Under the pieces are notes generated by a model that had not been told where the DNA came from, did no database searches, and worked only from the letters and a program-made list of their open reading frames with translations. A stretch of DNA of 64,000 nucleotides from Thermococcus litoralis DSM 5473 (GTDB taxonomy: Archaea; Methanobacteriota_B; Thermococci; Thermococcales; Thermococcaceae). The position numbers and the translations under genes are program-made. How positions within the stretch are numbered: position 1 is the first letter of the stretch; every line of letters begins with the position of its first letter. The DNA is taken from NCBI RefSeq assembly GCF_000246985.2, contig NC_022084.1:1-64000 (forward strand). The letters are read 5' to 3'. This document shows positions 1 through 44,971 of this stretch, piece by piece.

Positions 1-397
1 AGAACCAAAAGGAGGAGGTGAAAATAGACTTTCAATTCTTCTAAAGTCTTATTGGAACAGCTTGATGGCTTTGAATGAAAAAACTGCGCTCTTGACTTTC
101 AATTCTTCTAAAGTCTTATTGGAACTAAACTTGCTTGAGATTTCGCGGCGATTTTACTATACTTTCAATTCTTCTAAAGTCTTATTGGAACAAAGACAAC
201 TCGTAACAATTGGGTTGGTCTTGCTGTTCTTTCAATTCTTCTAAAGTCTTATTGGAACTTGAAAAAGAACTCAGGGAGCAATCAACCTATACAACGACTT
301 TCAATTCTTCTAAAGTCTTATTGGAACACAGTAGAGCAGACAGTAAATGCGCTCGCAAGCATACCTACTTTCAATTCTTCTAAAGTCTTATTGGAAC

Positions 398-776
398 ACG
401 GGAACGCGACCGAAGAGGACGTCGAACTATTGTTAAAGAACTTTCAATTCTTCTAAAGTCTTATTGGAATTCCCCCTTATGTTAGCTATAGGGTTTCTAG
501 GTCTTTTGGCTTCAATTCTTCTAAAGTCTTATTGGAACGGGCGAAACTAGAGTCCCTAAAGCCGGATGGCTAGAACTTTCAATTCTTCTAAAGTCTTATT
601 GGAACTAGAGGGGCAACGACCGCCCAAATAATGCAGATTTTCTTTCAATTCTTCTAAAGTCTTATTGGAACATAGACTTTAACCCATGCTGTACAGTCTA
701 TAAAATCTCTTTCAATTCTTCTAAAGTCTTATTGGAACAAGAATACCTAGAAACGAAATTCGGGGGCGGTGAATGA
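398..776 (-). repeat. Duplicated six-spacer block, copy 1
   Basis: Six consecutive spacers, starting with the 43-nt spacer at 398-440 and ending with the one at 739-776, are repeated in the same order at 1285-1667. Copy 1 differs by four single-base deletions, all between about 470 and 541: one at the end of a repeat, one inside a spacer, one inside the next repeat and one at the start of the next spacer. Confidence 0.97.
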
Positions 777-1284
777 CTTTCAATTCTTCTAAAGTCTTAT
801 TGGAACACGGATGGCATAGAAATATTATTCCATGCCATCACGAACTTTCAATTCTTCTAAAGTCTTATTGGAACTCTACGTCGCCCATTATGGCTATGCT
901 CTCTTGTAATGCTCTTTCAATTCTTCTAAAGTCTTATTGGAACGGAATTTTCGGTCGAATGGAAAGTAACGGATAAAGGCAAATTTCTTTCAATTCTTCT
1001 AAAGTCTTATTGGAACGGGCGCCGTAAGTCGCCCCCTAAGTACCCGCCTTAAGGCTTTCAATTCTTCTAAAGTCTTATTGGAACCACCTTTTTGTTAATT
1101 ATGCTTTTGTCTTCTTTTAACTTTCAATTCTTCTAAAGTCTTATTGGAACCAAATTCCGATATATTAGAACGAACCGCCGGGCTTACTTTCAATTCTTCT
1201 AAAGTCTTATTGGAACAGTTATTCTTTAACGGCCGATGGGGCTTTAAATGAAGACTTTCAATTCTTCTAAAGTCTTATTGGAAC

Positions 1285-1667
1285 ACGGGAACGCGACCGA
1301 AGAGGACGTCGAACTATTGTTAAAGAACTTTCAATTCTTCTAAAGTCTTATTGGAACTTCCCCCTTATGTTAGCTAATAGGGTTTCTAGGTCTTTTGGCT
1401 TTCAATTCTTCTAAAGTCTTATTGGAACGGGGCGAAACTAGAGTCCCTAAAGCCGGATGGCTAGAACTTTCAATTCTTCTAAAGTCTTATTGGAACTAGA
1501 GGGGCAACGACCGCCCAAATAATGCAGATTTTCTTTCAATTCTTCTAAAGTCTTATTGGAACATAGACTTTAACCCATGCTGTACAGTCTATAAAATCTC
1601 TTTCAATTCTTCTAAAGTCTTATTGGAACAAGAATACCTAGAAACGAAATTCGGGGGCGGTGAATGA
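1285..1667 (-). repeat. Duplicated six-spacer block, copy 2
   Basis: Second copy of the block at 398-776, offset by 887 bp at its left end. All repeats here are full length, so this is the better preserved copy. The next spacer on each side differs between the copies, which limits the duplication to exactly six spacers and their repeats. Unequal recombination between repeats is the simplest explanation. Confidence 0.97.
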
Positions 1668-2779
1668 CTTTCAATTCTTCTAAAGTCTTATTGGAACCGA
1701 CTAAATCCGTTTTTATCGTCGCGGAATTATCGACTTTCAATTCTTCTAAAGTCTTATTGGAACCTAGCCTTTCCCCGCTCTTATCTCTCATATAAATGTC
1801 TTTCAATTCTTCTAAAGTCTTATTGGAACTTTACGACGCCGTCCGCGACTATTTCGAAGGCGGTACCTTTCTTTCAATTCTTCTAAAGTCTTATTGGAAC
1901 TTAAAACATTAATGAACATTGAGAAACATTAAAAAATTTCTTTCAATTCTTCTAAAGTCTTATTGGAACCCGGTTCGGACGGGGCGGCTACGGGCTAGCA
2001 TTCATACCTTTCAATTCTTCTAAAGTCTTATTGGAACAAGCCGTTCTACAAAATGAAGACGAAGAAGACGAACTTTCAATTCTTCTAAAGTCTTATTGGA
2101 ACCCAGTCCGAGCTTAACGCATGGGCTAAAGCACTAGAAAAGACTTTCAATTCTTCTAAAGTCTTATTGGAACCCTTTACAATAAGCGGCGCTGAGTTAC
2201 GTATAAGGCTTTCAATTCTTCTAAAGTCTTATTGGAACGGTAGATTAAGAACGGCGTTTATTCTTAGTATTTCTTTCAATTCTTCTAAAGTCTTATTGGA
2301 ACTAGCTCTTGAAGTTATCACACCGTTAGGTATATGGACTTTCAATTCTTCTAAAGTCTTATTGGAACGTGGTGTTCCGGACGCCGAAATCCAAATTAAA
2401 GACAATCCTTTCAATTCTTCTAAAGTCTTATTGGAACTGAAGTTGATAGTTGGATGTTTAATGGTAGAAGTTTTCTTTCAATTCTTCTAAAGTCTTATTG
2501 GAACCAAGAAGGACACCTGGAGAAACACTTAACCTTGCAAGTCTTTCAATTCTTCTAAAGTCTTATTGGAACTTAAAAGTTCTCTTTGGTGGTCAAACAG
2601 TCTTCCAAGCATCTTTCAATTCTTCTAAAGTCTTATTGGAACCTTGAAGCGGCAATAAACTTTTTTAGGCACAACATATTCTTTCAATTCTTCTAAAGTC
2701 TTATTGGAACGATGAGAACGGGACGAAGCTAAGTTACTACGTGGAGAGTCTTTCAATTCTTCTAAAGTCTTATTGGAAC

Positions 2780-18610: not shown

Positions 18611-22471
<3,861 letters not shown>

Positions 22472-22641: not shown

Positions 22642-23082
22642 CTATTCCTCTAAACCCTCATAGATAATCTTCAGCCTGTAGGCATGTTTGAGCTCTTCTT
22701 GAGCCATCATGTTGAATATCTCGCTTAAAGAACCGCTAAGTATCTGGCTTAGTTTTTTGTAGAGCTCATAGCTGTGCTTTTCCCTTATGAGGGCCTCTAA
22801 GATAAGATCAGTCAGTGTCTGAGGCTCAGCCCTCTCATCCTGGAAGTATGGCTCCAGGCTTAAAGAATCCACGTAATCTATAACCGCGGTTTTTTCCAGA
22901 GTCTTCTCACTGCTGAACTTCTCAATTGTATTTTTGTGCCTCAGCTCTTCACTTGCAAGCCACTGGAAGTGTTCGATTAAAGAGGGGTGCTCATAGGTAG
23001 CAAAGGTCTCTCCGAGCTTGTAGAGGTTGTAAAGCTCGTTCTCCTGGTGAACTATCTTCTGCAGGAGCTCTTCAAGCTTCAT
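22642..23082 (-). CDS. Ferritin-like diiron-carboxylate protein
   Basis: The 146-residue, all-helical protein has the paired ExxH motifs of ferritin-like/rubrerythrin folds: ASEELRH near residue 46 and AQEELKHA near 127, with LIREKHSYELY between. It lacks the rubredoxin CxxC domain of classic rubrerythrin. A role in iron handling or peroxide defence is likely but not proven. ATG 23082 has GGAGTGA five bases upstream and starts just past the CDF transporter stop, so the two are cotranscribed, suggesting linked metal handling. Confidence 0.8.
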   Translation of the reverse strand: MKLEELLQKIVHQENELYNLYKLGETFATYEHPSLIEHFQWLASEELRHKNTIEKFSSEKTLEKTAVIDYVDSLSLEPYFQDERAEPQTLTDLILEALIREKHSYELYKKLSQILSGSLSEIFNMMAQEELKHAYRLKIIYEGLEE

Positions 23083-23087
23083 CTTTC

Positions 23088-23948
23088 TCACTCCGTTATC
23101 CCTTTGATATCTACATGGACAAACGCCGCCTCAACCTCATCCAGGTCTTCGATTTTCCTTTTAACTTCTTCGCTTATGTCATGTGCCTCTTTAAGGGTGA
23201 AATGTGGGGGAACTTCTATGTGCAGCTCAACATGCAGCTTTGGACCAACGTAGTGTGCCCTCAGGTCATGCACCCCAACAACACCCTCAACGCTGAGTGC
23301 AGTTTCTTTAATCTTTTCACACAGCTCAAAGGGTGGAGAAGTTCCTGTTAGGTAGTTCACATTCTTGAAGACTATCTCAGCAGCAGCCTTACCCACAAGC
23401 AAAGCCACGACAAGTCCTGCCAAAGCGTCCCCATAGGTAAAGCCCAGCCTTTGAAGGAGTAAGCCTATTAAAACAGCGACACTGCTCAGTGCATCACTCC
23501 TGTGGTGATAAGCATCTGCAACAAGTATCTGGTTGTTGAGCTTCTTTCCCACTCTAAGGGCGTACTGGGTCATTGCTTCCTTTGAGACAATAGAAATCAC
23601 AACAACGGCAAGCATGACCGAGTTCACTTCAATAACATGCCCGCTGAAGATTCTTTTCAGGGCATCTCTGGCTATTTCATAAGCAACCAGAAAGAGCAAT
23701 ATGCCTATAAAAAAGGCAAACAGGGATTCAAATCTGGAATGGCCGAAGGGATGGGTTTTATCGGCAGGCTTTGATGCGATCTTAACCCCGAAGTAGCCCA
23801 CGATACTTGTCGCAACATCCGAGAGAGAGTGTATACCATCGGAAATCAAAGCCAAACTGGAGTATAAGAACCCAACAAAAACCTTCAGAATAGCCAAAAG
23901 AACGTTTCCAAGGATGCTCGCTATTAAAGGCCTGTAAACCTCTTCCAT
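23088..23948 (-). CDS. Cation diffusion facilitator (CDF) metal transporter
   Basis: The 286-residue product has six membrane segments and a C-terminal cytoplasmic domain with alternating His (LHVELHIEVPPHF) typical of CDF metal-binding domains. Metal-site motifs are DGIHSLSD in helix 2 and DAYHHRSDA in helix 5. It exports Zn, Mn, Fe or similar divalent cations by proton antiport; the metal is uncertain. The ATG follows GGGGTGTAA, which overlaps the 3' stem of a box C/D sRNA candidate. Confidence 0.92.
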   Translation of the reverse strand: MEEVYRPLIASILGNVLLAILKVFVGFLYSSLALISDGIHSLSDVATSIVGYFGVKIASKPADKTHPFGHSRFESLFAFFIGILLFLVAYEIARDALKRIFSGHVIEVNSVMLAVVVISIVSKEAMTQYALRVGKKLNNQILVADAYHHRSDALSSVAVLIGLLLQRLGFTYGDALAGLVVALLVGKAAAEIVFKNVNYLTGTSPPFELCEKIKETALSVEGVVGVHDLRAHYVGPKLHVELHIEVPPHFTLKEAHDISEEVKRKIEDLDEVEAAFVHVDIKGITE

Positions 23949-23951
23949 AGG

Positions 23952-24018
23952 TTACACCCCTCAGTCCGTCACTCCATCATCACGACTCAGGTAAGGCTGA
24001 ACTCTTCATTGGGTGTTA
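23952..24018 (-). ncRNA. Box C/D sRNA with two guides that fit 16S rRNA
   Basis: On the minus strand the order is: stem ACACCC, box C ATGAAGA (24003-24009), 12-nt guide, box D' CTGA (23987-23990), 3-nt spacer, box C' GTGATGA (23977-23983), 12-nt guide, box D CTGA (23961-23964), stem GGGTGT. Spacing and terminal stem match archaeal C/D sRNAs exactly. From memory of Thermococcales 16S rRNA, the D guide TGGAGTGACGGA pairs with CCGUCACUCCA at the decoding site (11 of 12), and the D' guide GTTCAGCCTTAC pairs with AAGGCUGAA near E. coli position 900. Box C has one deviation from RTGATGA. It overlaps the ribosome site of the CDF gene. Confidence 0.85.
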
Positions 24019-24096
24019 CACAATTCGCATGAGACTTTTAAATCTTTTTCAAAAGACTTTTATTGTTAATAGACAAGCAACAATCGGTGGAGTTTA

Positions 24097-24453
24097 ATGG
24101 CAAATAAGCCGAGATACACAATAAGAATTTACATGGGGAGCAAGGATAAGTACATTGCCCTAAGTCTGTGGGATGCATACATAGACCAGCATGGAACCTT
24201 CAGACCGGCAAACATAAGCATGATAATCCACAACGAAGATGTTGAGGCAAAGGCTTCAATGAGGACTGAGACAGCTGCTAGGCTTGCAGCGGTGCTTTTA
24301 AACATGGTGGCTGAGGCGGAGAAGCTGACCATGAAAGAAAAGAAAAAGATCAGTCTTGAAGAGAAGCTTGAGGAGCAGTTCCTTCTCGAAGAAGAAGAGG
24401 AGGACATTATCGAAGACGTAGAGAGGATAAACGCAAGCGTTGATGAGGAGTGA
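24097..24453 (+). CDS. Conserved hypothetical acidic protein
   Basis: A 118-residue protein that I do not assign. The first 80 residues (RYTIRIYMGSKDKYIALSLWDAY onward) look like a small alpha/beta domain; the C-terminus is a strongly acidic helix (LLEEEEEDIIEDVE). The ATG is preceded by GGTGGAG. The following radical SAM gene starts at its stop, so the two form an operon and may work together. Confidence 0.75.
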   Translation: MANKPRYTIRIYMGSKDKYIALSLWDAYIDQHGTFRPANISMIIHNEDVEAKASMRTETAARLAAVLLNMVAEAEKLTMKEKKKISLEEKLEEQFLLEEEEEDIIEDVERINASVDEE

Positions 24454-24458
24454 TCCTC

Positions 24459-25286
24459 TTGAAAAAGCTCAAGGTCTACATACCGGGTATTTCTTTCCCA
24501 TCTATTTCCCTTACTGGAAACTACTGCACCCTAAACTGTGCCCACTGTGGGAAGCACTACCTTGAGGGAATGAAGAAAGTAACGAAGCATAACCTCGTCG
24601 AATACTGCAAATCGCTTGAGAAAGAGGGCTATAGGGGCTGTCTTTTAAGCGGTGGGCTGGACTCAAGGCTTAAAGTGCCACTTGACCTTTATTCTTCAGA
24701 GATAGAGCGCATAAAGAAAGAAACGAAGCTAAAGCTCAACGCCCATGTAGGTTTTATAGACGAGAAGGACTTGGAATGGATAAGGCATGTGGATGCAGTT
24801 TCTCTCGATTTTGTTGGGGATGACGATGTTATTAGGAGAGTTTATAAAATAGAAAAGGGCGTTAGAGACTACCTCGAGATAATAGATCTTCTCACATCAA
24901 ACGGTATCAAAGTTGCGCCGCATATAACCATAGGTCTGGACTTTGGAAAGGTTTGGTGGGAGTACAAAGCAATTGATATGCTCGTGGAGTATCCAATTGA
25001 GGTTTTGGTTTTTGACGTTCTAATTCCAACAAGAGGAACGGAGATGGAGAACGTAAAAGCTTCTTCTGTAGAGGAGAGCCTAAAGGTTGTTAAATATGCC
25101 AGAGAAAGGTTCAATGGAGAGCTGAGCATCGGATGTATGAGACCTCTGGGAAAATGGAGGCTGGAGTTTGACAAAGGGGCTATAGAGGAAGGAGTTGACA
25201 GAATAACAAACCCGCCAAGAAAGGTCATTGAGTGGGCAAAAACAATAAGGGAGGTAGAGGTTATTTACGAATGCTGCGTTATGTGA
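24459..25286 (+). CDS. Radical SAM protein of unknown function
   Basis: The N-terminal CTLNCAHC is a CX3CX2C cluster motif for a 4Fe-4S centre that cleaves S-adenosylmethionine; LSGGLDSR near residue 65 fits the SAM-binding GGE-like position. Total length is about 275 residues, close to a bare radical SAM barrel with no auxiliary-cluster domain, although two Cys lie at the C-terminus (ECCVM). TTG 24459 with GGAGTGAT upstream is favoured; GTG 24450 is the alternative. It is coupled to the acidic protein before it. The substrate is unknown. Confidence 0.85.
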   Translation: MKKLKVYIPGISFPSISLTGNYCTLNCAHCGKHYLEGMKKVTKHNLVEYCKSLEKEGYRGCLLSGGLDSRLKVPLDLYSSEIERIKKETKLKLNAHVGFIDEKDLEWIRHVDAVSLDFVGDDDVIRRVYKIEKGVRDYLEIIDLLTSNGIKVAPHITIGLDFGKVWWEYKAIDMLVEYPIEVLVFDVLIPTRGTEMENVKASSVEESLKVVKYARERFNGELSIGCMRPLGKWRLEFDKGAIEEGVDRITNPPRKVIEWAKTIREVEVIYECCVM

Positions 25287-34050: not shown

Positions 34051-34368
34051 GGCGGCGGACGCGCCCGAGGGTGGGAACCCTCCTCCAGCGGCTTCCACCG
34101 AGACTTGCTCGCCCCCGCTACCCCACGAGCGCCGAACGTCCCGCCTACCGCTGCTCCCTTCCGGGCCTTGCGGGGTTCGGCGGGCAAAGGGAGTTAGCGG
34201 AGCCCTTCAGCTCCGCCTCTCCCACCGCCGGCCCCGTGGGACAGGGGCTCATGGCTCCTCTCGGCTTCCGCCGCTGGATTTAGGAACCGCCCCTCGGGCT
34301 TCGGCCCCCGCATATCGACGGTTTCGGGTTCCAGGGGACGCCGAACCCCCCAGCCTAGTCCGCCGCCA
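34051..34368 (-). ncRNA. Archaeal signal recognition particle RNA (7S RNA)
   Basis: A roughly 318-nt GC-rich block in an AT-rich genome. On the minus strand it opens with GGCGGCGGACTAGGCTGGGG and closes with complementary GCGTCCGCCGCC, forming the terminal helix. The helix 8 region has GGCCCGGAAGGGAGCAG, the conserved SRP54-binding loop with GGAG and GCAG elements. Length fits archaeal 7S RNA. The RNA scaffolds SRP19 and SRP54 for membrane targeting. Confidence 0.97.
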
Positions 34369-44029: not shown

Positions 44030-44092
44030 TATGCGATGATGAGTGATGGGCGAACCGAAAGATGAGGATGGAAAGGTGATCGCTGAGCATTA
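44030..44092 (+). ncRNA. Candidate box C/D sRNA
   Basis: Plus strand: ATGC stem, box C ATGATGA (44036-44042), 12-nt guide GTGATGGGCGAA, box D'-like CCGA (44055-44058), 3-nt spacer, box C'-like ATGAGGA (44062-44068), 14-nt guide, box D CTGA (44083-44086), GCAT stem. A TATA-like CTTAAAAA lies near 44002-44010. The D guide ends AGGTGATCG, complementary to the CGAUCACCU at the 16S rRNA 3' end as I remember it. The D' and C' boxes each deviate by one base and the D guide is long, so confidence is moderate. It overlaps the lplA-like stop codon. Confidence 0.55.
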
Positions 44093-44912: not shown

Positions 44913-44971
44913 CCGGTCAGGGGCCGATTAGCTCATCACCCTTCAGCAACCTACCCTTCACATCATCCCAG
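44913..44971 (-). ncRNA. Candidate box C/D sRNA overlapping the signal peptidase 3' end
   Basis: Minus strand: stem CTGG, box C ATGATGT (44960-44966), 13-nt guide GAAGGGTAGGTTG, box D' CTGA (44943-44946), 3-nt spacer, box C' GTGATGA (44933-44939), 12-nt guide GCTAATCGGCCC, box D CTGA (44917-44920), stem CCGG. Order and spacing fit archaeal C/D sRNAs; box C has one mismatch. I could not place its targets. The same bases could instead encode an extended signal peptidase C-terminus (see findings). Confidence 0.55.

Follow-up and report, generated by a model that had tools for sequence, protein, structure and literature searches.

The window, by which we mean the whole 64,000-nucleotide stretch of Thermococcus litoralis DNA analysed here, carries on its minus strand a C/D box sRNA lying immediately before the gene of a cation efflux transporter. 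A cmscan search of the whole 64-kb window places a match to the Rfam family sR60 (RF01309) at 23959-24013, with 62.8 bits against a gathering cut-off of 50 and an E-value of 5.1e-13. Within the minus-strand sequence of 24019-23950, GUAACACCCAAUGAAGAGUUCAGCCUUACCUGAGUCGUGAUGAUGGAGUGACGGACUGAGGGGUGUAACC, the element consists, from its 5' end, of the CCC strand of the conserved terminal (C) stem (24011-24013), box C, AUGAAGA (24003-24009), the 12-nt D' guide GUUCAGCCUUAC (23991-24002), box D', CUGA (23987-23990), a 3-nt D'-C' spacer (23984-23986), box C', GUGAUGA (23977-23983), the 12-nt D guide UGGAGUGACGGA (23965-23976), box D, CUGA (23961-23964), and the GGG strand of the stem (23958-23960), the boxes being placed by sequence and family alignment. 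The transporter that follows on the same strand (23088-23948) is a CDF-family protein of 286 aa (PF01545, PF16916; TIGR01297, 275 bits), and its stop is overlapped by 4 nt by the gene of a rubrerythrin-domain (ferritin-like) protein (22642-23091, minus strand; PF02915), which is probably part of the same operon.

The window element is a member of the catalogued guide family sR60 of Thermococcaceae C/D box sRNAs. An earlier sequence-only reading had proposed a C/D box sRNA at 23952-24018, and its boxes, guides and spacer were all located; archaeal C/D box sRNAs are characterized by boxes C, D', C' and D, a pair of guides about 12 nt long and a short gap between D' and C', and the genome also encodes the C/D box sRNP proteins fibrillarin and L7Ae. 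A chance resemblance is ruled out by the Rfam E-value together with the conservation and covariation described below. Box C of the window is not RUGAUGA but AUGAAGA, a form found in 15 of the family's copies beside ATGATGA in 57 and ATGAGGA in 8; the altered position faces the U in box D, a place where the family commonly has A or G. The window copy shares with RF01309 its boxes, both guides, its length, its 16S targets and a score above the curated cut-off, and differs in its stem (CCC/GGG against CGG/CCG), in its box C (AUGAAGA against AUGAGGA or AUGAUGA) and in not standing in tandem with sR1, which sits apart at 44032-44088 on the plus strand, some 20 kb from sR60. The Rfam scan identified sR36 (44915-44970, minus strand) as another C/D box sRNA of a known family, like sR1. 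Our literature search found neither an archaeal paper naming sR60 nor a T. litoralis transcriptome. One of the genomes compared, G030, is presumably that of T. kodakarensis. In the published list of circular sRNAs from that species (Table 1, PMC9014305), no entry falls at the position of sR60 in G030.

To which RNA are the guides directed? Both were scanned against 16S and 23S rRNA taken from the same genome. The D guide pairs with 16S through 11 contiguous Watson-Crick bases (CCGUCACUCCA), placing U1361 at the +5 position, and the D' guide through 9 (AAGGCUGAA), placing G855 there; a set of 600 random 12-mers drawn from the window contained none that paired with 16S over 11 contiguous bases and 8 (1.3%) that paired over at least 9. 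The 23S rRNA was rejected as a target, its best contiguous Watson-Crick runs being of 6-7 bases. Through the universal CCCGUCAC stretch we take U1361 to correspond to E. coli U1406, in helix 44, and G855 presumably corresponds to E. coli G902, in helix 27. The check that the earlier reading had asked for, an alignment of the guides with rRNA over 9 or more bases, is thus passed by both on the organism's own 16S, and its placing of their targets in 16S rRNA near U1406 (D) and near 900 (D') proves accurate. The U1406 numbering agrees with a published E. coli/P. abyssi table (PMC7005279). Across the 80 copies of sR60 the core of the D guide is near-invariant and its +5 nucleotide is always U1361. 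Pairing of the D' guide at the G855 site extends to 10-12 Watson-Crick bases in many Thermococcus copies and is poor (8-9 bases) in only eight copies, which have CCUAGG or CCUAAG beside D'; most Pyrococcus D' guides have 8 contiguous bases at the site and match slightly better elsewhere in 16S. sR60 is probably expressed and its targets are probably methylated: assembled with L7Ae, Nop5 and fibrillarin, it would direct 2'-O-methylation of 16S rRNA at U1406 in helix 44 through the D guide and at G902 in helix 27 through the D' guide. Methylation is known to cluster in helix 27, and predictions in helix 44 are sparse in the seven species of Dennis et al., none of which belongs to the Thermococcales (PMC4644070).

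The terminal stem that closes the molecule is shorter than had been thought. The earlier proposal of a 6-bp stem, ACACCC/GGGUGU, was an overstatement, for it uses a slipped register that leaves an unpaired G between box D and the stem; as a conserved structure it was rejected, being formable in three near-identical genomes only (the window, L040 and L041). The register adjoining the k-turn is the 3-bp CCC/GGG, whose pairs directly abut box D and the 3-nt bulge, the geometry that a C/D k-turn demands. With the family alignment extended by one base at its 3' end, the stem is CCC/GGG in all 16 genomes of groups g1 and g5 (the groups are defined below), CGG/CCG or a close variant in g2, g3 and part of g6, and AAA/UUU in g4 and another part of g6. 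Among 17 diverse sequences 96% of the stem cells are paired, and 21 cells are changed on both sides against 6.6 expected. The covariation score is 1.11 against 0.26 in shuffled alignments; none of 500 shuffles was as high, and the score exceeds that of every slid register. On this comparative evidence the terminal stem is evidently kept by compensatory change. Simple folding of the leader RNA gave a stability no better than that of shuffled sequences (z -0.26), a figure that is uninformative because k-turns are not modelled.

It is the 3' end of this stem that links the sRNA with the transporter. The Shine-Dalgarno sequence of the CDF gene, GAGGGGUGU (23954-23962, minus strand), combines the last two bases of box D (GA) with the stem's GGG and the next bases; it is the best anti-Shine-Dalgarno match in the leader (duplex energy -9.0 kcal/mol) and ends 5 nt before the ATG, which itself begins 12 nt after box D. 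The suggestion that the 3' stem overlaps the CDF ribosome site therefore stands, GAGGG being the end of box D plus the stem strand. Box D and the stem serve as the Shine-Dalgarno in eight genomes (the window, L032, L033, L036, L040 and L041, and L045 and L046 of g5), in which the ATG lies 7-10 nt from the end of the model and no second Shine-Dalgarno for the CDF gene was found. A separate Shine-Dalgarno, GGTGAT, is present in the rest of g1 (7 of its 13 genomes) and in L047; in those seven g1 genomes the CDF start lies 18-20 nt after the model end. In two g2 loci, L006 and L007, the Shine-Dalgarno begins inside the strand of the stem that adjoins box D, an overlap that apparently arose independently. 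The sR60 of L033 (genome G011) has box D as CTGG instead of CTGA, so that the overlapping Shine-Dalgarno becomes GGGGGG; this may reflect either a guide that is decaying while its ribosome site is retained or an error in the sequence.

A TATA box, TTTAAA, with a BRE-like GAAAA just 5' of it, lies at 24037-24042 on the minus strand, that is at -29 to -24 from the first conserved base of the sRNA. TATA boxes have been reported at -30 to -23 (PMC6640164) or about 23 bp 5' of the transcription start (PMC4247193), which would set the start at approximately 24013-24017, at the 5' end of the sRNA or at most about 4 nt before it. A TATA-like site 24-31 nt 5' of the sRNA is found in nearly all non-Pyrococcus genomes, and none was seen between the sRNA and the CDF ATG (23948) at the window locus. 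The BRE/TATA element before sR60 is, as far as the sequence can indicate, the sole evident promoter for the CDF gene in the window. Transcription from it would run on into the CDF gene, so that sRNA and transporter are presumably co-transcribed and the sRNA would make up nearly the whole 5' leader of the CDF/rubrerythrin-like mRNA. With its overlapped translation signals and no separate promoter in sight, the locus has the features of a 5'-overlapping C/D sRNA gene. We consider the guide role of sR60, together with this shared-leader anatomy, highly probable.

How general is the arrangement? sR60 scored above the cut-off in 80 of the 81 Thermococcaceae genomes searched and gave no match in 14 control genomes. 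Its context was examined in the 80 genomes, divided into groups g1 to g6, of which g1 is the genus of the window; we take g1 to be the T. litoralis group, g2 Pyrococcus, g3 Thermococcus proper and g5 Palaeococcus. A CDF gene follows sR60 on the same strand in 70 of the 80, at a distance of 7 to 133 nt from the end of the model; outside the eight genomes with the shared Shine-Dalgarno it often has a promoter apart from that of sR60. The other 10 have no CDF of this kind elsewhere at an E-value of 1e-60, and the persistence of sR60 in them shows that it is independent of the transporter. Throughout g1 and g5 sR60 has no adjoining sR1, and the CDF gene begins 7-20 nt after it. Most Pyrococcus and Thermococcus genomes have immediately before sR60 a second C/D sRNA with a GGUAGGUGAUC-type guide, which by this resemblance looks like sR1, and their CDF gene mostly follows a spacer containing a DtxR-like box (of the TTAGATTAGGCTAAC type, so named by resemblance), often with the palindrome TGTGCATATGCACA. 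Such spacers occur at most g2, g3 and g6 loci, for example L004, L051 and L049; both box and palindrome are absent from the sR60-CDF locus of the window. The window's genome has a single exact copy of TGTGCATATGCACA, at L164:1500-1513; the divergent genes on either side of it look iron-related, which hints at iron control. On a transporter tree rooted with Methanocaldococcus, g1 and g5 fall outside a clade of g2, g3, g4 and g6 (support 96/95), so that the tight coupling of sR60 and the CDF gene probably came first, and the spacer carrying a separate promoter arose later.

The shared GAGGG sets up a potential conflict between the two fates of the transcript. Folded as sR60, the RNA would bury GAGGG in the C stem and the sheared pairs, and trimming to the mature sRNA would take it off the mRNA; a transcript held in the C/D k-turn with L7Ae bound, or trimmed, should not start CDF translation, and one and the same molecule should thus not serve as both. 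The earlier suggestion that processing of sR60 could affect transporter expression is plausible. There are precedents for such effects. L7Ae autoregulates its own translation through a k-turn beside the Shine-Dalgarno in the l7ae 5' UTR, masking of the Shine-Dalgarno being the proposed mechanism (PMC5539422); expression of a reporter gene falls when a C/D sRNA gene overlaps its 5' end (Tripp et al. 2017, reviewed in PMC7994747); and in T. kodakarensis sRNAs occur inside 5' UTRs, where some snoRNAs may be cis elements acting via their k-turns (PMC4247193). The window locus resembles the C/D sRNA genes that overlap the 5' end of ORFs (PMC7994747; PMC4247193) in having an sRNA in the leader and a start codon just past box D; the use of box D and stem as a Shine-Dalgarno is not described there. 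Like the l7ae leader it has a k-turn by the Shine-Dalgarno near the mRNA 5' end, but l7ae has a simple guide-less cis k-turn, whereas the window has a dual-guide sRNA before an unrelated gene.

Whether the conflict is put to use is another matter. There is about an even chance that sR60 is a housekeeping guide and nothing else, its overlap with the CDF gene being an incidental product of genome compaction. GAGGG arises simply from a box D ending in GA and a stem that happens here to be GGG; sR60 persists in the genomes that have no linked CDF, its spacing from the CDF gene varies from 7 to 133 nt, and half of the window's own genus uses a separate Shine-Dalgarno. Against mere coincidence, the transporter of eight genomes has neither another Shine-Dalgarno nor another evident promoter, which implies some physical coupling even if unselected, and close spacing is found in g1 as well as in g5, the two early-branching groups of the transporter tree. 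That competition between sRNP and mRNA is used as regulation we regard as unlikely, and we are equally doubtful of its historical extension, by which a conserved guide doubles as an L7Ae-controlled leader, in a coupling that dates from the ancestor of Thermococcaceae and gave way in Pyrococcus and Thermococcus to a promoter under separate regulation. If it were so, sRNP assembly, through free L7Ae and thus ribosome biogenesis, would set the levels of the exporter and the rubrerythrin-like protein. The variation of the Shine-Dalgarno within the genus argues that competition is lineage-specific at most and not a conserved requirement. Far less credible is a locus that acts chiefly as a cis k-turn leader, an L7Ae-responsive translational switch never released as a guide: the autoregulatory k-turn of the l7ae leader (PMC5539422) and the cis role suggested for 5'-UTR snoRNAs (PMC4247193) lend it some appeal, yet the match of both guides to 16S is conserved also at loci that have no transporter after them, and a switch of that kind would need neither the guides nor the C'/D' motif.

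The guide function itself admits a different reading, which we hold to be improbable: that the D guide acts on another 16S nucleotide, such as C1402, or that the sRNA works mainly as a folding chaperone bridging helices 27 and 44, whose target sites both lie close to the decoding site. The two targets are about 500 nt apart in 16S, and bridging sRNAs have been proposed (PMC4644070). In the 3.2 A model of the P. abyssi 30S subunit, the equivalent of C1402, a neighbour of the target, is ribose-methylated (Cm1376), few ribose methylations are listed overall, and neither a Um at the U1406 equivalent nor a Gm near 902 is among them (PMC7005279); at this resolution the missing Um1406 is weak evidence against methylation at the predicted U1406 site. 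The +5 rule, however, directs the invariant guide core to U1361, and almost every copy has a mismatched A facing C1402, both of which speak against the alternative nucleotide.

The sRNA is in itself ordinary and catalogued; the notable part is its overlap with the ribosome site of the transporter. What could make the locus important is its natural compactness, a single short stretch being at once k-turn box, stem and ribosome-binding site. It lends itself to asking cleanly if downstream genes are repressed by archaeal sRNP assembly, and the relatives that have a shared Shine-Dalgarno, a separate one, a separate promoter or no transporter would serve as natural controls.

Several other features of the window deserve mention. 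Divergent from sR60 lies the gene of a LipS1-family lipoyl synthase (24450-25286, plus strand; NF053742, 351 bits), adjoined by that of a conserved 118-aa protein (24097-24453) with no family match. The ribonucleotide reductase ORF (18611-22462, minus strand) contains an insert that begins with CVVGDTRV and ends with SHN before C, a probable intein; several relatives align only outside residues 464-845 or so and seemingly do without it. The archaeal SRP RNA is at 34053-34365 (minus strand, 227.5 bits), and a CRISPR array with some 39 repeats, assigned to the Rfam type CRISPR-DR6, occupies 29-2779 (minus strand), starting close to the left end of the window.
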